A DNA stretch of 30,444 bases. Source: a virus. Positions within the stretch are counted from its first letter, which is position 1, and each line of letters begins with the position of its first letter. A program made the position numbers and the translations under genes. The notes under the pieces are model-generated. The model was not told the origin of the DNA. It was given only the letters and a program-made list of their open reading frames with translations, and ran no database searches. Below, one piece after another: positions 725 through 23,981 of this stretch. Location of the stretch: IMG/VR virus record IMGVR_UViG_3300042691_017437, positions 1 to 30,444 of that record. One strand, 5' to 3'.

Positions 725-787
725 TCACCATGTGTAAACCACTCCCAGCAGCAACGCCCAGATGATGATCAGCACCATTGGAATCAT
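725..787 (-). CDS. 20-residue membrane micro-protein
   Basis: A reading frame of 20 residues starts MIPMVLIIIWALLLGVVYTW. It is almost entirely hydrophobic, long enough for one membrane helix, and ends in Tyr-Thr-Trp as expected at a membrane interface. Its ATG overlaps the TGA of the upstream gene as ATGA and a GGAGG lies close upstream. Its end overlaps the alternative start of the AP2 gene. The coupling supports translation. The function is unknown; a small membrane regulator is one possibility, and it is shorter than any usual holin. Confidence 0.5.
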   Translation of the reverse strand: MIPMVLIIIWALLLGVVYTW

Positions 788-1173
788 GACTGCACCTCCG
801 GCGCCATCAGCATCTGCCGAATCCTGGTGGCCGTGAACGGCCCGCGAGCAATCCGCTGCCAGATCACCCGCATGGCAGCTACCGCCTCGATGTCAGCCAT
901 GCAGCTGCCGCATTCGTTCAGCGCTTGAGTGACCGCATCATGGGTCTCCCGATACAGCCTTGGCTCGGGTTCCATCAGCGCATCACGCCAAGCAGCCACC
1001 TGCGCCAGCGACTGCAAGCCGAAGTTGCTCACCTTCATCAGGTCATCGCTGTCGGCCATCATGATCTGCTCGGCCGTAAAATACCCACCACGCAGCAGCG
1101 CATTGATCGTGCGCGTGGTCATGTAAACCGTGGTTTCCGGTATCAGCCGGAAGTCGTCTTCACTGGGGTGCAT
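784..1173 (-). CDS. Protein with RNA polymerase alpha-CTD-like domain
   Basis: This is a 129-residue protein. Residues 19-67 match the pattern of the C-terminal domain of bacterial RNA polymerase alpha: an LS-x-RT-x-N-x-L-like start (here TTRTINALLRGGYFTAEQI), then a DDLMKVSNFGLQSL segment corresponding to DLLKI-x-NFG-x-KSL. The helix-hairpin-helix NFG-x-x-SL core is intact. Residues 70-129 form an additional helical region of unknown type. The protein could bind DNA upstream elements or host transcription partners in place of alpha, or be a generic helix-hairpin-helix DNA-binding protein. It sits in the leftward operon and overlaps its upstream neighbour by 14 nt. Confidence 0.75.
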   Translation of the reverse strand: MHPSEDDFRLIPETTVYMTTRTINALLRGGYFTAEQIMMADSDDLMKVSNFGLQSLAQVAAWRDALMEPEPRLYRETHDAVTQALNECGSCMADIEAVAAMRVIWQRIARGPFTATRIRQMLMAPEVQS

Positions 1174-9282: not shown

Positions 9283-9394
9283 GCCCCTGCGACGCTTCTT
9301 CAGCAAACTCGTTGAGTGGTTCCCGCTACCCACCGACGACGAGATGGATCGCGTCTTCAATTCACCCACACGCTCACATGCCCGTAGACCTTGA
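9275..9394 (+). CDS. Possible 39-residue overlapping gene
   Basis: A GTG overlapping the VRR-NUC stop opens a frame of 39 residues (VSEPLRRFFSKLVEWFPLPT, then DDEMDRVF and a basic tail). It ends 17 nt inside the primase gene. The fill of the gap and the amphipathic first helix suggest a real small gene, but the only support is position and composition. If it is not translated, the 95-bp gap before the primase contains nothing else that I can identify. Confidence 0.35.
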   Translation: MSEPLRRFFSKLVEWFPLPTDDEMDRVFNSPTRSHARRP

Positions 9395-12300
9395 TTCCGC
9401 TCGCCAGTTCCTCGCCGCCCTCGGCAAACCCAGAGGCACCACTCGCCTCCGCGGCTTCTATGCCAAGACTGACCCGCGCAAGGCCACTGATCACGGCGCA
9501 AAGGGTGACCCCAGCAAGGCGCTGATTGAGTCCTGGGTGGCCGATGGCCGCGGCGTCTACGTCGTCATCAACAACGGCGGTGACAAGGATGCCGACATCA
9601 CAGAGTGCATCGCCCTCTTCTGCGAGTGGGACGATCGGCCCAAGGACTGGCAGGTCACCGCATGGAAAGAGCTCGGCCTGCCCGAGCCCACCATTCAGGT
9701 CGACACCGGTGGCAAGTCCATCCACAACTACTGGGTCCTCTCCGGCCCCGTCAGCCCCGAGATCTGGAAGCCCATCCAGACCCGCTTGCTTGATTACGCC
9801 GACGCTGATCGGCAGCTCAAGAACCCCAGTCGGGTCATGCGCCTGCCCGGCACCCCGCACCCGGAGACCGGGGAGCTGGCCCAGCTGATCCACCTCTCGG
9901 ATGCCCGCTACTCGATCACCGAATTCGCCGCGACCATGCCGGTGCCGGTAGTCGACACCCGCATCGAGCAAGCCCGCAGGTTCACCGACTACGAAGCCCA
10001 GGGCCTCGACGAGATCCAGCGGGCACTGCAGGCCATCCCTCCGCGGGTGCCAGGCGGTAACACCTACCCCATGTACCGCAACATCCTCTGGGGTCTGATC
10101 GCTGCCGTCGAAGAGGCCGGCAGCTCGGCCGCCACCGCCATGTCGATGATGGCCTCGCACTCACCTCAGTGGCATGGCATCGATCAGGTGGCCGGCTCCG
10201 GTGGTGACGACGTTGCTGCTGGCACTTTTTGGTACTGGGCCAACCAGCATGGCTACCGGGCACCACGACGCGTCAAGCCGGGCCCGGCCGAGCTGCGCAA
10301 CTTGCCCCACAACTTGCCCCCCAAATCAGAGCCTGCTCATGGGCCAGCTGAAACCGCTGATCCAGAGCCGGATCTCGAGGATGACGCCCCCGATCCAGGG
10401 CCTGCCGCTTCCCTCCCATTTCGCCCCCTCGGCTTCGATCACGGCATCTACTACTACCTGCCGCGTAACGCCTGCCAGGTCATTCCGCTCACCGCCGCAC
10501 AGCACAACAAGTCCCACTTCCTGCAGCTCGCACCCCTCGAGTGGTGGGCTAACGGCTTTGCCAACGACAACGGTCGCATCGACTGGGATTCGGCCGTCAA
10601 CGCCATCCTCGGCTCTTGCATCACGCAGGGTGTCTACGACCCCTCCCGTGTCCGTGGCCGCGGGGCCTGGGCTGATGCTTCACGCGTCATCCTCCACCTC
10701 GGCAATCGCCTCGTGATTGACGGCCGCTCACACCAGATCACCAAGCTGCCAATCGATTTCAAGAGCTTCTACTTCTACGAAAACGCCAAGGCGATCGATG
10801 GGCCCGGCCGCGACATCCTCTCCGACGAGCTCGCCGCCAAGGTGCGGGTCATCGCCGAGCGCTTTCGCTGGGAGACACCGGCCAGCGCCAACCTGCTCCT
10901 CGGCTGGATCGTCCTCGCACCCGTTTGTGGCGCCCTGGACTGGCGGCCACACATCTGGGTGACCGGTGGCGCCGGCACCGGCAAGGCCCAGCCACACTCT
11001 GCGAATGTGCTCACCCCGACCGGTTGGCGATGTATGGGCGACATTGAGGTTGGGGACTTGGTCTCCACGCCGGACAACGGCTTCGCAAGAGTTCGCGGAA
11101 AGTACCCGCAGGGACAGCAGTTGACCTACCGGATCACATTCGCTGATGGCCGCTCGACCCGTGCTACCGCAGACCATCTCTGGAAAGTTCGCGTCAAGCA
11201 CTGCTGGCGGATCCGCACCACTGACGAGATGGCCGAGATTCTCGCCACCGAAACCCGGCAATCCCGCAGCCTCGCAGTCCCCCTCTGCCACGCAATGACC
11301 GTTCGCAACGGTGGGGCTACCTCGCTTCTGCCGCTGCACCCATACGCGCTTGGCGTCATGCTCGGCGACGGCTCGTTTGTTGAGGGCGGTGGCAACAACC
11401 TCACCGTCTTCGATTCGGAAATCGTCGGCCGGGCTCGTCAGTGTCTCGAGGGATCACCTTTTAACTTCTTCGACACGAACGTCGGCGGCCGGTATCGTCT
11501 CGGTGATCTGTCGCGCTACGGAAAGCAAACCAGGCAGACGATCAAGGATCTGAGGCTCCTGGGCACGCACTCCGACACAAAATTCATTCCTCGCGCCTAC
11601 CTCGAGGCCTCGATCGACGACCGCATCGAGTTGCTCAAGGGCCTCATGGACACAGACGGCACAGCCGAAAAGACCGGTGGCATCAGCTTCTGCACGGTGT
11701 CCGAGCAACTGCGTGATGACGTTGTCGAACTCGTTCGCTCACTGGGTGGCATCGCCAAAGTCAGCGTGAAGCAGCCCTCCTATACCCACAATGGCGAACG
11801 GCGCCAAGGCAGGACCGCCTTTATCATCGGCATTCGGCTGCCCGACCCCACCATCGCTTTCTCGTTGCCGCGCAAGCTAGAGCGGATCTCGCCCAACTAC
11901 CAGTACGCCGACTGCCTCTATCTCAACGTCGTGTCGATCGAACCGGACGCGCCCGAGGAGTGCTCCTGCATCGCCATCGATCACCCCGATCGGCTCTACG
12001 TGACTGACGACTTCGTGGTGACCCACAACACCACCATCCTCAAGTCCTTCATGAAACCGCTGCTCGGTGGCATGTTCGAGGGTGCCACCGGCGGCACCAC
12101 CGAGGCCGGCCTTCGCGGTCAACTTCGCTCTGACGCTATCCCGGTGGTGTTCGACGAACTCGAGCAGAACGAGCAGAAAGACAAGCAGCAAGTTCAGAAC
12201 ATCCTCGCCCTTGCACGCATCGCATCTTCGGAAGGCGGCAAGATTTACAAAGGCACAACTTCTGGCGGGTCAAACACATTTGAGATCCGCTCTATGTTCT

Positions 12301-13064
12301 GCTGCAGCTCCATCAACGTCGCTCTGATTCAACGCGCCGACCTCGATCGCTTTTGCGTACTTGGCCTGCGCAAGGATCACATGGACAAGGATGACTGGAA
12401 TGAATTTGAACAGCAAATCCTGAGCAACTGCACCGAAGAGAACGGCCGTCAGCTGGTGGCACGCACTCTCCAGCAGATCCCGACAATCCGCAAGAACGCC
12501 AAGACACTCGCGGCGGCCCTGTCACGCCGCTTCGGCCAGCGATTCGGCGATCAGTACGGCACCCTGCTGGCTGGCGCCTGGACGCTCGAGCCGGCTGGTG
12601 GCGGTGAACTTTCGCTGCAGCAGGCCATTGAGTGGATCAGCATGATGGACTGGGAAAGCCGCGAGGTGGACGCCACCGATGCGGATGAGGTGAAGTGCAT
12701 CAGCCACATCCTCCAGGCGCTGGTGCAGGTGGATGGCGGCAAGCGCATGTCGGTGCTTGAGCTCGTCCAGATGGCTCAGCGCGGCGTCATCTTCGCCGTC
12801 TACGGCCGGGACCAGCCCTCCGATGAGGTCGAGACGATCCTGGGCCGCTACGGGCTGCGGGTGACCGGTGGCGCCCTGGCGGTGGCCAACAACAACACCA
12901 ACCTGCAGAGCCTGCTGCGGGACACCCCATGGGCCGGCAACGCGTACCGGCAGTCTCTCAGGCGCCTTAACGGGGCTTCGGTGAGCGCTGGGACGGTCCG
13001 GTTCAAGGGAAGCGGTGTCGCTCGCGCAACTTTGGTCCCACTTGAGACGCTTGAGACTGTGTAA
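9378..13064 (+). CDS. Primase-helicase split by an intein
   Basis: The precursor has 1,228 residues, or 880 after splicing. The first 300 residues resemble RepB/AEP-type primases: CIALFCEWDDRP supplies acidic catalytic residues and IQVDTGGKSIHNYWVL the conserved His region. A Pro-rich linker follows near residues 325-350. The C-terminal part is a helicase of the D5/DUF927 or P4-alpha type with Walker A GGAGTGK-(intein)-TT and Walker B IPVVFDELEQ. The ATG at 9378 starts the first conserved segment (MPVDLDSARQFLAALG). The protein likely primes and unwinds at the phage origin. It is the last gene of the replication operon. Confidence 0.87.
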   Translation: MPVDLDSARQFLAALGKPRGTTRLRGFYAKTDPRKATDHGAKGDPSKALIESWVADGRGVYVVINNGGDKDADITECIALFCEWDDRPKDWQVTAWKELGLPEPTIQVDTGGKSIHNYWVLSGPVSPEIWKPIQTRLLDYADADRQLKNPSRVMRLPGTPHPETGELAQLIHLSDARYSITEFAATMPVPVVDTRIEQARRFTDYEAQGLDEIQRALQAIPPRVPGGNTYPMYRNILWGLIAAVEEAGSSAATAMSMMASHSPQWHGIDQVAGSGGDDVAAGTFWYWANQHGYRAPRRVKPGPAELRNLPHNLPPKSEPAHGPAETADPEPDLEDDAPDPGPAASLPFRPLGFDHGIYYYLPRNACQVIPLTAAQHNKSHFLQLAPLEWWANGFANDNGRIDWDSAVNAILGSCITQGVYDPSRVRGRGAWADASRVILHLGNRLVIDGRSHQITKLPIDFKSFYFYENAKAIDGPGRDILSDELAAKVRVIAERFRWETPASANLLLGWIVLAPVCGALDWRPHIWVTGGAGTGKAQPHSANVLTPTGWRCMGDIEVGDLVSTPDNGFARVRGKYPQGQQLTYRITFADGRSTRATADHLWKVRVKHCWRIRTTDEMAEILATETRQSRSLAVPLCHAMTVRNGGATSLLPLHPYALGVMLGDGSFVEGGGNNLTVFDSEIVGRARQCLEGSPFNFFDTNVGGRYRLGDLSRYGKQTRQTIKDLRLLGTHSDTKFIPRAYLEASIDDRIELLKGLMDTDGTAEKTGGISFCTVSEQLRDDVVELVRSLGGIAKVSVKQPSYTHNGERRQGRTAFIIGIRLPDPTIAFSLPRKLERISPNYQYADCLYLNVVSIEPDAPEECSCIAIDHPDRLYVTDDFVVTHNTTILKSFMKPLLGGMFEGATGGTTEAGLRGQLRSDAIPVVFDELEQNEQKDKQQVQNILALARIASSEGGKIYKGTTSGGSNTFEIRSMFCCSSINVALIQRADLDRFCVLGLRKDHMDKDDWNEFEQQILSNCTEENGRQLVARTLQQIPTIRKNAKTLAAALSRRFGQRFGDQYGTLLAGAWTLEPAGGGELSLQQAIEWISMMDWESREVDATDADEVKCISHILQALVQVDGGKRMSVLELVQMAQRGVIFAVYGRDQPSDEVETILGRYGLRVTGGALAVANNNTNLQSLLRDTPWAGNAYRQSLRRLNGASVSAGTVRFKGSGVARATLVPLETLETV
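10986..12029 (+). other. Ala1-type intein with LAGLIDADG homing endonuclease
   Basis: The intein comprises 348 residues inserted between the Lys and Thr of the helicase Walker A. It starts with Ala (AQPHSANVLTPTGW), not Cys or Ser, and ends TDDFVVTHN, with Thr as the +1 extein residue. Block A (NVLTPTGWRCMGDIEVGD), block B (TADHLW), block F (IAIDHPDRLYVTDDF) and block G (THN) are visible. The two endonuclease motifs LGVMLGDGS and LLKGLMDTDG keep their acidic residues, so the homing endonuclease looks intact. The frame is continuous with the host protein on both sides. Confidence 0.92.
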
Positions 13065-15664: not shown

Positions 15665-15843
15665 CACACGATGAACGGATTGACGCTGTTGCGACCCTTG
15701 TGGCCGTAATGGTGAAAAGCGGCGACATCTTCGAGGATCAGATGATCGAACTGCGCAACGACCTGATGACCGCCACCGACGACGAACTGATGGAGGCTTG
15801 CCTCGAGTATTCCTTTGGGGACTTGCGGGGGGTCGGTTTTTAA
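15661..15843 (+). CDS. Small helical protein, paralogue B
   Basis: It encodes 60 residues starting MTHDERIDAVATLVAVMVKS. The stretch GDIFEDQMIELRNDLM matches the GDISEAQIAETEAWL stretch of its upstream neighbour, so the two are tandem paralogues. The Cys-rich tail of the first is absent here. Its last eight codons lie in the first unit of the 26-bp tandem repeat that follows, so part of the C-terminus comes from repeat DNA. It starts at an ATGA overlap. Confidence 0.6.
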   Translation: MTHDERIDAVATLVAVMVKSGDIFEDQMIELRNDLMTATDDELMEACLEYSFGDLRGVGF

Positions 15844-15872
15844 GGGACTTGCAAGGGGTCGGTTCTTTAGGG
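15821..15872. repeat. 26-bp tandem duplication
   Basis: Two 26-bp units (15821-15846 and 15847-15872) begin ACTTGC and contain GGGGTCGGTT followed by a T-run and AGGG. They differ at a few positions. The first unit covers the end of the coding sequence of the upstream gene. Confidence 0.65.
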
Positions 15873-15913
15873 GTGTTTTTACACACGGCTGGGGGTGGTT
15901 TTTAGGCCACCCC
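15855..15913. repeat. Degenerate 54-bp element, copy B, with a hairpin
   Basis: Positions 15855-15908 align with copy A at 14583-14640. The end of the copy includes GGGGTGG (15892-15898) and CCACCCC (15907-15913), a 7-bp stem with an 8-nt T-rich loop. A weak terminator for the small-gene operon is possible, though the T-run is in the loop. Confidence 0.45.
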
Positions 15914-15935
15914 GCTATATACAAAATCTTTGATT

Positions 15936-15998
15936 AGTACATTTGTACTATAGTACATTTGTACTGTAGTACATTTGTACTATTAGTACATTTGTACT
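15936..15998. repeat. Four iterated palindromes, AGTACATTTGTACT
   Basis: The same 14-bp sequence, with arms AGTACA and TGTACT around TT, occurs at 15936, 15952, 15968 and 15985. Start-to-start spacing is 16, 16 and 17 bp. All four are identical in the 14-bp core. This is AT-rich and without a gene. It has the look of operator or replication iterons. Confidence 0.75.
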
Positions 15999-16023
15999 AT
16001 TTGTGTCAAGATCTAAAACAGTG

Positions 16024-16073
16024 CTGTTTGCAAGTAATGCAAACTGCGCTGTTTGTAATTAACTCAAACTGCG
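16024..16073. repeat. 25-bp tandem repeat with inverted repeats
   Basis: Two directly abutting 25-bp units (16024-16048, 16049-16073) share the outer bases CTGTTTG and CAAACTGCG. The first contains GTTTGCA-N5-TGCAAAC, a 7-bp dyad; the second keeps GTTTG-N9-CAAAC. Each unit could bind one dimer. Confidence 0.7.
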
Positions 16074-16125
16074 GTGCACGGTTGGGTGCATCGGGTGCGG
16101 TGCACGGTTAGGTGCATCGGGTGCG
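16074..16125. repeat. 26-bp tandem repeat with inverted repeats
   Basis: Two abutting 26-bp units (16074-16099, 16100-16125) differ at one base. Each contains TGCAC-N6-GTGCA. The first unit directly abuts the preceding 25-bp array. From 16126 to 16371 I see CpG-rich DNA with no supported gene; ACCGGCGAACC occurs twice there (about 16300 and 16362). Confidence 0.75.
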
Positions 16126-16371
16126 GTGCCGCGCGGCGAACGTTTCGCGACGTTGCGCACGCTTGACGGATCGCCGGCCCGCGTGGTTCGCGCGTACGCG
16201 CTCCGCTGATCGGCGATCGCGTCGACGTGACTAGGTGATCGCGTCGGCATGCCGTCACGTTCGCCGACGGTGCCGTGCATGTCGCAACGCGGCCGACCGG
16301 CGAACCGTCACACGTGCTAGGTGCACGCGCGCTGATCGATCGGTAGGATTTGCGCACGCCAACCGGCGAAC

Positions 16372-16390
16372 CTTTTACCGCTTGCATGCC
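16372..16390 (+). promoter_or_regulatory. Pyrimidine-rich leader, copy 2
   Basis: CCTTTTACCGCTTGCATGCC immediately precedes ATG 16391, matching the other leaders except for the TGCA insert-like end. Confidence 0.5.
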
Positions 16391-17407
16391 ATGACACAAA
16401 CCCTCCCCAAAGGCGCGCAGCGCGTCGCCGACCGCGCCGGCGTCGCATCGGTGCACGCCGAATCCGGCTGCGCGTTCGGCGGCCGCTCTTATGTCGCATA
16501 CGCGGCGCCCGGTTACTGGTTCCCTGCGGTTGAATGCGGCACCGTGATCGCGTCAACCGTGCGCGAGCTCGCCGACTACGCGCGGCCGGCGCTGATTCCG
16601 GCCGACATGCCGACGCCGTCAGGATGCACGCCGGCCGAACCCGTCGCCGAACCGATCGAACCGACCGCGCGCGCCGCATGGCACGCGGCGCCGGCTGGCG
16701 TCGACGTGGTGCCGTTCGCGTCGGTTTCTGACGCGGTGCGGTTTGAAACCGCGGCGCTATTCGACGCGCGCCGTTACGCGCGCTCTGGCGCTGCCGACGG
16801 TCGCGCGGTGCTCGGCACCGTCGCCGACGGCGTCCGTTGGCGCGTTGCCGACGCCGTCGCCGACGCTGCCGACGGTTACCACGCCGACGCCGTCGCCGTT
16901 GTTGTGCTGGCGTCCGGCAACGCTGCTGACGCGGAAACGCTGCAGTTTGCCGGCGTTTCATACGTTCGCGCCGGCGATGGCGCTGAAGACTGCGACGCCG
17001 CGTTTTTGGCGTCGCATGCCGGCGCGCCGTCGCGCGACTTTGAAACAGTCGCCGACGCGCTCGCGCACGCTGCCGGCCGCGCCGTGCGCCGCTCGCCGGT
17101 GCTGCCGGGGGAGCATGCCGCGCCGGTGCTGCCGTCGCACGGCGACCGCGCGCCGGTGCTGCCGGTGCTGCCGGTGCTGCCGGGGGATCCCGGCTACGCT
17201 GCCGCGTGCTACGCGCTGCCGGTCAAACCGGCACCGCTGCGCAAAGCCGCAACGCTGCGCGCGCTCGCCGCTCGCGTCACGTCGCCGGCGTTCGCCGCTG
17301 ATCTGATCGCGCGCGCTGATCGCTTGGAAGCGATCGCCGACGGCGTGCCGCTCGCCGACCGCGTAACGCAACGCGCGTACGATCACGCGCCGCTGATTAC
17401 GCGCTGA
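16391..17407 (+). CDS. Ala-rich unknown protein of the CpG-rich island
   Basis: The 338-residue protein starts MTQTLPKGAQRVADRAGVAS. Residues 10-65 form a compact N-terminal part with GCAFGGRSYVAYAAPGYWFP. The middle is rich in Ala, Asp and Val. A Pro-Val-Leu-Pro repeat lies near residues 238-264. The end is a helix with LRALAARVTSPAFAADLIA, like a short coiled region. The codons favour GCG, CCG, TCG and GAA, unlike the genes on either side. The start follows the conserved leader. It is the first of four island genes. No family is recognised. Confidence 0.65.
   Translation: MTQTLPKGAQRVADRAGVASVHAESGCAFGGRSYVAYAAPGYWFPAVECGTVIASTVRELADYARPALIPADMPTPSGCTPAEPVAEPIEPTARAAWHAAPAGVDVVPFASVSDAVRFETAALFDARRYARSGAADGRAVLGTVADGVRWRVADAVADAADGYHADAVAVVVLASGNAADAETLQFAGVSYVRAGDGAEDCDAAFLASHAGAPSRDFETVADALAHAAGRAVRRSPVLPGEHAAPVLPSHGDRAPVLPVLPVLPGDPGYAAACYALPVKPAPLRKAATLRALAARVTSPAFAADLIARADRLEAIADGVPLADRVTQRAYDHAPLITR
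17153..17179 (+). repeat. CCGGTGCTG triplication
   Basis: Three exact copies of the 9-mer CCGGTGCTG encode three Pro-Val-Leu units inside the island gene. Copy number could vary by slippage. Confidence 0.6.
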
Positions 17408-17420
17408 TCATTCCCGCAAA

Positions 17421-17448
17421 CCTTTACCACTTACCTGCCATGCAAACC
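17421..17448 (+). promoter_or_regulatory. Pyrimidine-rich leader, copy 3
   Basis: This 28-bp block, TTTACCACTTACCTGCC followed by the ATG and the next eight coding bases, is identical to the one at 17804-17831. It has no Shine-Dalgarno. Confidence 0.7.
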
Positions 17449-17604
17449 CTTTACAGGATCGAAACGTTCGCCGGCACCGTCGCCGGTTGGCTGCCGGCGT
17501 CGCCGGCCGCGGTGCCGCTCGCCGTCGCCGAACGGCGCGCGCACCTTTACCGCGCGGTGCGTGGTGATTTGCGCCTGTTCCGCGTTGCGCCGGTGCTGCC
17601 GTGA
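17440..17604 (+). CDS. 54-residue island protein
   Basis: A frame of 54 residues starts MQTLYRIETFAGTVAGWLPA and ends LRLFRVAPVLP. The island codon style (GCG, CCG, GTC) is clear. It is basic and contains two possible strands around a central Ala-rich helix. Its end overlaps the GTG of the next gene as GTGA, which supports a real frame. The start follows the leader. No function is assigned. Confidence 0.6.
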   Translation: MQTLYRIETFAGTVAGWLPASPAAVPLAVAERRAHLYRAVRGDLRLFRVAPVLP

Positions 17605-17792
17605 CAAACCGTCAACCGCTCGAAACGGTGCGCAACGCCGACGGCGTCGCCGTCGGTTTGATCGCCGCGCCGACGGCAGCCGATCGCGCGATGCTCGCCG
17701 GAATTCTCAAACGCTACGCGGCCGACTACGCGGCCGGCGCGGTCGGCATTGTCGGACCCTACGGCACGTGGCGCGTTTCAGATCGCCACTAG
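17601..17792 (+). CDS. 63-residue island protein
   Basis: The frame starts at GTG (VTNRQPLETVRNADGVAVGL), overlapping the preceding TGA as GTGA. The protein has a helix with RAMLAGILKRYAADYAAG and a Gly-rich ending (GAVGIVGPYGTWRVSDRH). A fold of two strands and one helix is likely. It ends 11 bp before the conserved leader of the next gene. No family is recognised. Confidence 0.6.
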   Translation: MTNRQPLETVRNADGVAVGLIAAPTAADRAMLAGILKRYAADYAAGAVGIVGPYGTWRVSDRH

Positions 17793-17803
17793 CACAAACA
17801 AAC

Positions 17804-17831
17804 CCTTTACCACTTACCTGCCATGCAAACC
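17804..17831 (+). promoter_or_regulatory. Pyrimidine-rich leader, copy 4
   Basis: The block is identical over 28 bp to copy 3. It precedes the large island gene that starts at 17823. Confidence 0.7.
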
Positions 17832-18902
17832 GCAACCACAACCGGCGCAGCTCGCCGCAACGCGCCGGCCAACGTGCCGGCCGACGTTCGCGAGCTGCTA
17901 ACCACGTATCGGCTACAGCTCGCCGACTTGCTAACCACTTCAAACCCGAAACTTCTAAAGGGTTCGGAGCGCGTGCACAGTGCCATCCTTCACCACTTGC
18001 CAGAGCGCGCTCTGGCGCGCGCGATTAACCCTGTAACCGTCGGCAGCACCGCGCCGCGCGGTTACGTGCCGGCGTTGCGCGAGCTCGCCGAACAAACCGG
18101 CACGATCGGCCGCGCGAGCGTGCACAACGGTTGCGCGTTCGCCACGGCCGGATGTTCAGCCGCTTGTCTGGCAGGTTCCGGCCATGGGGGGCTCTCAGTC
18201 GACGTGACGGCGTGCCGCGGCCGGCGCACGCTTGCCATGCTCGCCGACGCTGAAACGTACGCGCGCGCCATTCTTTGGGCGATCGCGCGCGAGCATGCGC
18301 GCGCTGCCGGCCGCATGCTCGCCGTGCGGCTACGCGGCACCGATGAAACGCCGTGGCATGTTCGCCGGTTCGCGCTGCCACTTGCCGACGCCGTCGCGAT
18401 CCGTCGCCGGTTTGGCTTAACGATCGATCACGGCGACGCCGTCACGATGGCCGACGCGCTCGCGACCGCGCGCGCCGACGGTTCTGCCGTTCTGTACGAC
18501 TACAGCAAAGCGCCGGTGCACGGTCCGCTCGGATTGATCGCGCAGCGCGCGGCCGGCTGGCACGTTACGGCGTCGTTCGCCGCTGATCGCGCGACCGCGT
18601 GCGCCGACGCGCTCGCCGCGGCCGCTGCCGGGTTCGCCGTCGCCGTGCCGATCGCGTTACCTAAAGGCGCACCGCTGCCGGCCCGAATGCTGATCAGCAC
18701 CGGCGGCAGCACCGCGGCGCTGCGCGTGGTTGACGGCGACGCGACTGATCACCGTTTCACCGATGGCGCGGCCGGCGTCGCGATCGTGCTGCGCGAGAAA
18801 CGCGCGCGCGGTGCTGATCGATCGATCGCCGACCGTTTCATTGTGCCGGCCGCGCCGATCGTGCGTCTCGCCGACGGCGCCGTGCAATGGTTGCCGGCGT
18901 GA
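17823..18902 (+). CDS. Phage-conserved Cys-cluster protein (YDYTK / GDxTD family)
   Basis: This 359-residue protein matches a broad phage family of unknown function. The shared motifs are TSNPKLLKGS (residues 39-48), a Cys cluster with NGCAFATAGCSAACL and SGHGG (about 99-120), RLRGTDETPW (about 175), VLYDYSKAP (about 222), and VVDGDATDHRF (about 300). In other phages these read like vRLNGTSDipW, YDYTK and VDGDATDlRF. The Cys cluster suggests metal or iron-sulfur binding. The fold is often thought to be a TIM-like barrel, but I cannot confirm that. The codon use is that of the island. It ends 459 bp before the small terminase gene. Confidence 0.75.
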   Translation: MQTATTTGAARRNAPANVPADVRELLTTYRLQLADLLTTSNPKLLKGSERVHSAILHHLPERALARAINPVTVGSTAPRGYVPALRELAEQTGTIGRASVHNGCAFATAGCSAACLAGSGHGGLSVDVTACRGRRTLAMLADAETYARAILWAIAREHARAAGRMLAVRLRGTDETPWHVRRFALPLADAVAIRRRFGLTIDHGDAVTMADALATARADGSAVLYDYSKAPVHGPLGLIAQRAAGWHVTASFAADRATACADALAAAAAGFAVAVPIALPKGAPLPARMLISTGGSTAALRVVDGDATDHRFTDGAAGVAIVLREKRARGADRSIADRFIVPAAPIVRLADGAVQWLPA

Positions 18903-18916
18903 TTACCGATCGGTAA
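18903..18916. repeat. Perfect 14-bp palindrome after the island
   Basis: TTACCGATCGGTAA starts at the base after the stop codon of the preceding gene. It is a possible binding site and contains CGATCG. Confidence 0.55.
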
Positions 18917-18921
18917 AGTCT

Positions 18922-19022
18922 AAGCGCCGCGCTTAATCGCGCGGCGCTTCTGTATGCGCCGACGTGCTAAGCGTCGGCGTTTCTGTATGCGCCGGCGCGT
19001 GATCGTGCCGGCGTTTCTGTAT
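18922..19022 (+). repeat. Three tandem hairpins with compensating stem changes
   Basis: Three units (18924-18955, 18956-18988, 18989-19022; 32, 33 and 34 nt) each begin GCGCCG, form a stem-loop, and end TTTCTGTAT or TTCTGTAT. The first stem is AAGCGCCGCGC with GCGCGGCGCTT (11 bp, 6-nt loop). The second pairs CGCCGACG with CGTCGGCG. The third pairs a CGCCGGC arm with GCCGGCG-type sequence. The stem bases differ, yet pairing is kept. The first may act as a terminator (U-poor). Confidence 0.7.
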
Positions 19023-19064
19023 GCGATCGCCAGCCAATCGCGCGGCGATCGCGCGGCGATTGGC
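19023..19064. repeat. Long imperfect palindrome with two GCGATCGC
   Basis: GCCAATCGC (19033-19041) and GCGATTGGC (19056-19064) form 9-bp arms around a GCGATCGC centre (19045-19052). Another GCGATCGC is at 19023-19030. This octamer is the HIP1 element of cyanobacteria. Confidence 0.65.
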
Positions 19065-19102
19065 GCGCGCCGCAGCCAGCCGGTCGGCCCGGACACGCCG
19101 CC

Positions 19103-19152
19103 ACGATACAACACTATCGTGATAGCGTGGGTCCCTCTGGCCGCAGGGACTC
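19103..19152. promoter_or_regulatory. Operator-like dyad and a stem-loop
   Basis: ACGATA-N6-TATCGT (19103-19120) overlaps CTATC-GT-GATAG (19114-19125). It is followed by GGGTCCCT paired with AGGGACTC (19129-19152, 8-nt loop, one GU pair). Either could be part of a packaging site or a control region. The rest of 19153-19209 shows nothing that I can interpret. Confidence 0.4.
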
Positions 19153-19209
19153 GCGGGTTGATTCGAATCTCGTTATTTATCTAGGCATCAGCGCACGAAG
19201 TTAGTTCAG

Positions 19210-19235
19210 GTCTCACGGGTCTCATCTGCGTCTCA
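19210..19235 (+). repeat. Three GTCTCA repeats upstream of terS
   Basis: GTCTCA occurs at 19210, 19219 and 19230 (spacing 9 and 11). Three spaced short repeats next to a Nu1-like gene recall the R sites of the lambda cosB region, though the sequence is different. Confidence 0.4.
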
Positions 19236-19322
19236 CGCAATACCTCCCCTTTACCCGTCAACTGGGCAACCGGCCATATTACTCTCCAGGACTGGGTTTC
19301 AGCGCCTGGTGTCAACCAGAAC

Positions 19323-19347
19323 TGTAAACCTGTAACCTTGGTTTACA
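19323..19347. promoter_or_regulatory. Inverted repeat before terS
   Basis: TGTAAACC (19323-19330) and GGTTTACA (19340-19347) are perfect 8-bp arms with a 9-nt spacer. The repeat ends 13 bp before the proposed TTG start of the small terminase gene. It could be an operator or a hairpin that affects initiation. Confidence 0.5.
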
Positions 19348-19360
19348 CAGCCGGCAAACC

Positions 19361-22368: not shown

Positions 22369-23981
22369 TGGGACTCCGCACTCGTGTCATGACGGCCCTT
22401 GGATTTGGGTCGAAGCCTGAAGCTCAGCCGGCTCGTCGTCGCCGGCGCACCTATGCGGGTGCGGTGATCAATCGCCTGACGAGCGACTGGATCGCGAACG
22501 GCACCAGCGCCGACGCCGAGATCAAGACCAGTCTGCGGAAGCTGCGGGACCGCAGCCGGCAGATGGTGCGGGACAACCCGTATGCGCGGCAGGCGAAGCG
22601 CACCACGCAGATCAACGTGGTGGGCGGCGGGATCAAGCTGCAGTCGCAGGTGATGAGCCTGCGCGGGAACAAGCGCGACGATCGGATCAACGGCGCGATC
22701 GAAAGCCAGTGGACCCGATGGTGCAGGAAGGAATTCTGCGACGTGGCGGGCAAGAGCAGCTTCAATATGTTCGAGTGGCTGGCCGCCGGTGCGCTGCCCG
22801 AGTCTGGTGAGGTGATCTTCAGGATTCACCGACGGGCGTTCGGTGGCAGCAAGGTGCCGATGGCGCTGGAGATCATCGAGAGCGATCTGCTCGACGACGA
22901 GTATCAGGGTGCAGTGAGCGCCAAGAACAACGAGTGGCGGATGGGCGTCGAGATCGACCCCTACGGCCGCCCGGTGCAGTATGCGTTCCTGACGCGGCAC
23001 CCCGGCGATTATTGGTTCCAGGGGACGCCCGATCGCACCAGTGTGAAACACGTCTTCCTGCCAGCCAGGGATGTTGTTCACCTGTTTATCCCGGAGCGCC
23101 CCAATCAGCACCGAGGCGTGCCGTGGTTTGCGCCGGTGATTGGCGATGCTCATCAGCTGGCCGGCTACGAAGAAGCCGCGGTGGTGCGGGCCCGGTCGAC
23201 GGCATCACTGATGGGCTTCATCACATCACCCGAGGGTGAGCTCGAAGCCGATGACGTGGAAGAGGGTCAGCGGATCACCGAGTTCGAGCCTGGGGTGTTC
23301 AAGTATCTGGACGCCGGACAAAACGTGGTGGTGCCCGACCTGAAGTCGCCGGATGCGCAGTATGAGGGCTTCGTGCGGGCGAAGACGCGGCGGTTCGCCA
23401 GTGGTTTCGGCTGTTCCTATGAGACCCTGTCGCGGGACTTCTCTGAGACCAACTACAGCAGCAGCCGGTTGAGCCTGCTCGAGGATCGCGACCACTGGAA
23501 GGTGATCCAGAGCTACCTGATCGAAAATTTCCACACGCGGGTGTTCCGCGAGTGGCTGGATGTAGCGGTGCTCAGCGGTGAGCTGGCGCTGCCGGACTAC
23601 GAGCTGCGGCCAGAGCGCTATGACACACCGCGCTGGATGGCGCGTGGCTGGAGCTGGGTTGATCCGCTGAAGGAGGTGAAGGCCTACCGCGAAATGGAAG
23701 CTGCTGGGTACAAGACCAAAGCGCAAATTGTGGCCGAGCTGGGCGGCGACCTGGATGAGAACCTGCAGCAGATTGCGCGGGAGAAGAAGCTGGCCGACGA
23801 GCTGGGTGTTCAGCTGGACGCCGACATCGCCGCGGTACAACCGGCCGAGCAGCAGCCGGCTAGCGACGGGGAGCCTGCTTTACCTCCCGAGGCTCCCCGT
23901 CGCACACGCAATTCGCGTCGCAAGAAGGTGAGTAATGTGGATGGAGCTGAATCTGCGCGTCCTGATGGTCCGCTTAACTGA
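22368..23981 (+). CDS. Portal protein (lambda gpB family)
   Basis: The 537-residue protein belongs to the lambda-like portal family: DNPYARQAKRTTQINVVGGG near residue 70, EWLAAGALPESGEVIFRIHR near 135, and RRFASGFGCSYETLSRDFS near 340. It ends in an acidic helix and a Pro-rich, Arg-rich tail. It forms the dodecameric ring at the head vertex and is the docking site for the terminase. Its start overlaps the gpW-like gene by one base and its end overlaps the protease gene. Confidence 0.93.
   Translation: MGLRTRVMTALGFGSKPEAQPARRRRRTYAGAVINRLTSDWIANGTSADAEIKTSLRKLRDRSRQMVRDNPYARQAKRTTQINVVGGGIKLQSQVMSLRGNKRDDRINGAIESQWTRWCRKEFCDVAGKSSFNMFEWLAAGALPESGEVIFRIHRRAFGGSKVPMALEIIESDLLDDEYQGAVSAKNNEWRMGVEIDPYGRPVQYAFLTRHPGDYWFQGTPDRTSVKHVFLPARDVVHLFIPERPNQHRGVPWFAPVIGDAHQLAGYEEAAVVRARSTASLMGFITSPEGELEADDVEEGQRITEFEPGVFKYLDAGQNVVVPDLKSPDAQYEGFVRAKTRRFASGFGCSYETLSRDFSETNYSSSRLSLLEDRDHWKVIQSYLIENFHTRVFREWLDVAVLSGELALPDYELRPERYDTPRWMARGWSWVDPLKEVKAYREMEAAGYKTKAQIVAELGGDLDENLQQIAREKKLADELGVQLDADIAAVQPAEQQPASDGEPALPPEAPRRTRNSRRKKVSNVDGAESARPDGPLN

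Follow-up and report, generated by a model that had tools for sequence, protein, structure and literature searches.

What is the function of the dense group of repeats that occupies the non-coding stretch 15818-16121 of the viral record IMGVR_UViG_3300042691_017437, whose 30,444 analysed nucleotides are called the window hereafter? Little is known of how cyanophages choose between dormancy and lysis, and few temperate siphoviruses of Synechococcus have been described, S-LBS1 among them. The window is a partial contig of an IMG/VR virus related to this Synechococcus phage S-LBS1, the nearest isolate by its large terminase (45%), and the order of the terminase, portal and capsid genes is common to both. 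Given this nearest isolate and the shared gene order, the window virus is likely a cyanophage with a cyanobacterial host. The search for the large terminase (TerL) in Cyanobacteriota gave a best identity of 46%. At the DNA level, the repeat region had no useful match among plasmids and phages, and Rfam gave only sub-threshold chance matches for the region.

Two contigs, G002 (55 kb) and G004 (53 kb), are syntenic with the window and many of their proteins are 70-93% identical to its own. The close relatives measure 53-57 kb and possess an integrase; a tyrosine integrase was detected in G002, G004, G026, G029 and G048, and none in the window contig, which is partial. In G007, an integrase match with an in-frame TGA (23177-23494) is possibly a decayed integrase.

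Layout and composition of the repeat cluster

All the repeat elements of the cluster were recovered (Table 1), including the five repeat arrays named in a preliminary description of this DNA. The four copies of AGTACATTTGTACT are exact, with starts spaced by 16, 16 and 17 bp. The 25-bp units hold the palindromes AAACAGTGCTGTTT (16016-16029) and AAACTGCGCTGTTT (16041-16054), present also in G002, G004 and G039, and the counterparts of the hairpin in the same three relatives also fold, with a different sequence. The CGGTTAGGTG repeats of G002 and G004 are related to the 26-bp units of the window, and AGGTTAGGCA repeats are found at the equivalent place in S-LBS1. Both G002 and G004 hold the iteron-like repeats, the hairpin, the LexA boxes, the AAACAG palindromes and the CGGTTAGGTG repeats in the same order. 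The preliminary description had taken an absence of the repeats from close relatives as an observation that would speak against it; they are conserved there. The sharp change from AT-rich to CpG-rich DNA that it had reported was also measured, the array holding the 80-bp stretch of highest A+T content (0.76 versus a window mean of 0.38) and the CpG observed/expected ratio being 1.62 over 16.1-19.35 kb versus about 1.0 elsewhere in the window.

Table 1. Elements of the repeat cluster and the genes that follow it, in window coordinates.
Feature	Position	Strand	Remarks
Two iteron-like direct repeats, 26 bp	15818-15843/15844-15869	+	85% alike; core GGGACTTGC...GGTCGGTTYTTTA
TTTTTACACA, DnaA-box-like	15876-15885	+	Fits TTWTNCACA; putative function
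G+C-rich hairpin	about 15892-15914	+	
LexA-box-like palindrome 1, AGTACATTTGTACT	15936-15949	none	
LexA-box-like palindrome 2, AGTACATTTGTACT	15952-15965	none	
LexA-box-like palindrome 3, AGTACATTTGTACT	15968-15981	none	
LexA-box-like palindrome 4, AGTACATTTGTACT	15985-15998	none	
Two 25-bp units	16016-16040/16041-16065	none	76% alike
Two 26-bp units, TGCGGTGCACGGTTRGGTGCATCGGG	16070-16095/16096-16121	+	96% alike
ORF1, 338 aa	16391-17407	+	First plausible downstream gene; no Pfam family
GP88-family gene, PF17338, 359 aa	17823-18902	+	Proposed target operon

One element of the preliminary description was not retrieved. It had assigned a RepB-like primase to the window, and the 9312-13064 ORF (1250 aa) contains no primase domain of the RepB type according to Pfam, whose only match there was a LAGLIDADG domain. 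This domain belongs to residues 551-908, an inserted segment of about 358 aa that is missing from the 862-aa homologue of G004 and sits at the P-loop (GTGK/TT), and the insertion is a probable intein with a homing endonuclease.

The palindromes as probable LexA boxes and their distribution

The consensus of the cyanobacterial LexA box established by a comparative study is RGTACNNNDGTWCB / AGTACWNWTGTACT (PMC3091678), and AGTACATTTGTACT fits it exactly. When scored with a weight matrix built from the 42 usable boxes published in a table of that study (PMC3091678), the window palindromes reached 21.09 of 21.83 bits and exceeded all 42 training boxes, the next best site in the whole window being at 7.9 bits. 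Dinucleotide-preserving shuffles of the window contained a mean of 0 LexA-like sites versus 4 in the real sequence. Of the nine best matrix sites in each of five relatives (49-57 kb), nearly all are inside one array (at least 8 of the 9 in the strongest of them), and every site above 13.4 bits falls in the array. In G007 the core of the box is altered (AGTACAGGTGTACT) and the palindrome is retained. On the host side, sites such as AGTACTAATGTTCT and AGAACATTTGTACT occur close upstream of lexA genes in cyanobacterial genomes, and the boxes upstream of recA, lexA and umuDC are the same 14-bp palindrome, near consensus, although the tabulated host boxes are mostly less perfect than the window array (PMC3091678). 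These matches suggest that the four palindromes are probably near-perfect binding sites for the host LexA. As related viruses keep these sites ahead of one and the same gene, the phage probably reads the stress state of its host at the array.

A wider pattern scan gave 82 viral stretches, about 50 of them with LexA-box-like arrays, a figure to be read with the facts that array and non-array records were sorted by eye, that many of the compared contigs are interrelated and that a few control records also carry LexA-like pairs. Some of the array lineages have no other detectable similarity to the window. Among them, T7-like cyanopodovirus contigs, with a TerL 87% identical to that of Prochlorococcus phage P-SSP10, carry the array with neither integrase nor GP88, as in G030. 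In one such contig (L058, 5000-6100), the large terminase gene is followed by LexA-like boxes and then by many short TACCTAAGTA repeats. LexA-like boxes are absent from S-LBS1, whose different repeat cluster is located between the genes for the primase and the small terminase, and no such boxes were found near TerL in the isolated cyanopodoviruses P-SSP10, P-SSP7, S-CBP3, S-RIP1 and P-GSP1.

This distribution bears on the nature of the protein that would bind the array. The palindromes could be the operators of a regulator encoded by the phage and sharing the LexA motif by chance, and two observations are in agreement with it: no host factor is known for the AAACAGYGCTGTTT and CGGTTRGGTG families, and proteins of G004 (L012) match an NrdR-like zinc ribbon and the C-terminal domain of the RNA polymerase alpha subunit, the latter match belonging probably to the homologue of window 784-1173. 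We nevertheless regard such a coincidence as decidedly doubtful, since the same palindrome, identical in sequence, is found in unrelated phage lineages of different gene content, which argues for a shared host factor.

The high scores of the array could also indicate a decoy, in which super-consensus LexA boxes, together with Fur-like ones, would titrate the regulators of the host with the rising copy number of the phage genome and so turn on host repair or iron genes to the benefit of the phage. Array sites that beat every published host site, the clustering of two kinds of host-type box and the arrays of integrase-less phages are all compatible with this proposal. It seems to us quite unlikely, as it leaves unexplained the fixed place and orientation of the array upstream of GP88, and as 2-6 sites per genome amount to little before replication is far advanced.

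In cellular DNA, no tandem array was found in 386 Cyanobacteriota genomes, so that the host is confirmed by no prophage in a named organism. The pattern scan of genome contigs led, among the matches listed, mostly to Bacteroidota and other non-cyanobacterial records. Tandem AGTACANNTGTACT pairs, 28-30 bp apart, were observed in Saprospiraceae and other Bacteroidota (L102, L103, L121, L148, L177, L186, L198). The pairs in Bacteroidota and other genomes imply that some other regulator can use the motif, and those of Bacteroidota suggest an unrelated regulator that uses an identical palindrome.

The array upstream of GP88 and the proposed control by host LexA

A GP88-family gene (PF17338) was detected in 18/49 array records and in L080, a record first placed among the controls and then counted with the array records. 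In all 19 records having both, GP88 is situated downstream of the array, at a distance of 0.8-3.6 kb, and is oriented away from it; a sign test on the 16 distinct records, near-identical pairs being left out, gave 16/16 (p = 3e-5). With L080 included, GP88 is present in 19/50 array records and in 0/32 others (Fisher p = 2e-5, for records that share ancestry). GP88 is likewise among the first genes in pelagiphages and in a Mesorhizobium phage, and no host-type LexA box was found upstream of it in pelagiphages, rhizobial phages or Caulobacter phages. ORF1, located between the array and GP88, is not conserved across lineages. The ORF1-GP88 module (16100-19350) has the CpG ratio of 1.62 and contains every HIP1 motif (GCGATCGC) of the window, five in number, and was probably acquired from a different source. 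GP88 was also considered as a Rep protein, and its AlphaFold model, of good quality (pLDDT 87), had no confident PDB match, so that it was not classed with replication proteins. Between GP88 and the small terminase gene, a tandem repeat of about 33 bp in 3-4 copies (18924-19047) marks the position at which the G002 and G004 contigs end.

We give about an even chance to the reading in which 15818-16121 is a multi-operator bound by the host LexA and controlling the early ORF1-GP88 operon of a cyanophage, a reading in which the host, the promoter, the role of GP88, the binding by LexA and the direction of its control are inferred. Dimers of host LexA on the four boxes would repress the rightward transcription of ORF1-GP88; upon DNA damage in the host, RecA-stimulated cleavage of LexA would free the array and the operon would be turned on. 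No sigma-70 promoter match was found at 15700-16500, and the promoter may be of another type. The S24 peptidase (PF00717) is absent from 47 of 48 viral array records, a set to which the window does not belong, and no repressor family appears among 25 of the 29 families listed for 53 G004 proteins. Since the relatives have an integrase and no recognisable S24-type repressor, host LexA may be part of their lysogeny repressor. The arrays of phages devoid of integrase or GP88 imply that a role in lysogeny cannot be general.

Two known systems can be compared with this proposal. In the Bacillus phage GIL01, the host LexA is the prophage repressor and controls induction (PMC4551915). GIL01 has SOS boxes in its promoter region and lacks a conventional repressor (PMC4551915), as the window-type phages would in the reading proposed here; GIL01, however, has one canonical and one weak box and a helper, gp7, whereas the window has four near-perfect boxes in tandem. 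The window-type phages also differ from GIL01 by another host group and by additional repeat families, and their control by LexA is predicted. The second system is the early promoter Pleft of L5-like (Cluster A) mycobacteriophages, which is controlled by a repressor (PMC5712189). In mycobacteriophage Phaded, the stoperator sites at the genome end are directly followed by a GP88-family gene, so that the resemblance extends to repeated operator sites near the genome end, a non-coding leader and then a GP88-family gene. L5-like phages, in contrast, have their own repressor and asymmetric 13-bp sites dispersed over the genome (PMC5712189), and the window has palindromes of the host-LexA type at one locus. 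The integrase unaccompanied by an S24 repressor, the parallel with Phaded and the Pleft of L5, and the place of GP88 among the first genes of other phages are the reasons for which an early operator of host LexA is favoured.

The preliminary description had left three options for the cluster, a control switch, a replication origin or a partition site. The fit to the LexA box, the conservation and the position of GP88 downstream support the control switch best, and an origin is possible. Partition of a plasmid-like prophage would be in agreement with the layout of the tandem palindromes, which resembles that of centromere arrays, but it is very improbable: no ParA/ParB was found among the same 25 of 29 families of G004, and the relatives have an integrase instead.

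Flanking repeats, replication and host stress

Judged by sequence alone, the window has the attributes of an iteron origin, namely tandem repeats of about two turns with AT-rich DNA and a DnaA-like box adjoining. The upstream repeats would be iterons for a phage initiator, TTTTTACACA a DnaA box and the AT-rich array the unwinding region, any binding of LexA gating initiation. Within 330 bp upstream of the arrays of other phages, the iteron core GGGACTYGC shows an enrichment of about 167-fold, divergent phages have direct repeats of 21-26 bp ahead of their arrays (as tandem units of 21 and 23 bp in L030 and L061), and TTTTTACACA is kept between the iteron-like repeats and the array within the clade. 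In most of the complete relatives the minimum of the cumulative GC skew is within about 4 kb of the array, and a repeat cluster of another kind occupies the corresponding position in S-LBS1, a phage devoid of LexA-like boxes. The combination of 21-26 bp tandem repeats, a DnaA-like box and AT-rich DNA is that of iteron origins of plasmids and phages, from which the window differs by palindromes that fit the consensus of a transcription factor and by the lack of a recognised cognate initiator. Unwinding does not need palindromes matching such a factor so exactly, the skew minimum coincides with a change of gene direction, and several array lineages have no DnaA-like box. Taken together, these data make an origin a tentative and somewhat unlikely interpretation of the cluster.

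The Fur box has a 7-1-7 form. Fur-box-like sites of this type (TGAKAATNATTMTCA, at least 13/15) were enriched 44-fold around the arrays, with 57 in 33.6 kb there and 20 in the other 519 kb, and the window group has none. Fur-type palindromes TGAGAATNATTCTCA, in one to several copies, adjoin the LexA-type boxes in L081, L061, L059, L040, L260 and L048. LexA boxes, Fur-type boxes and iterons by an early gene, possibly with an origin, could form a stress-sensing hub, widespread among cyanophages, at which DNA damage and metal status of the host would jointly gate the start of the phage, a proposal that we hold to be unlikely; its strongest version would have replication itself gated by LexA on the AT-rich segment.

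Control of phages by host LexA is already known, and no paper describing LexA-box arrays in cyanophages was found in the open-access literature. To our knowledge, the conservation in cyanophages of near-perfect LexA boxes in a tandem array, accompanied by Fur-like boxes and iterons beside GP88, is undescribed. Returning to the operator of host LexA, if this reading is true, many aquatic cyanophages would sense the SOS response of their host through one conserved locus and without a repressor of their own. Ultraviolet or chemical damage to the DNA of picocyanobacteria would then be linked to phage induction, and GP88, an uncharacterised family of early genes, would gain a regulatory context.
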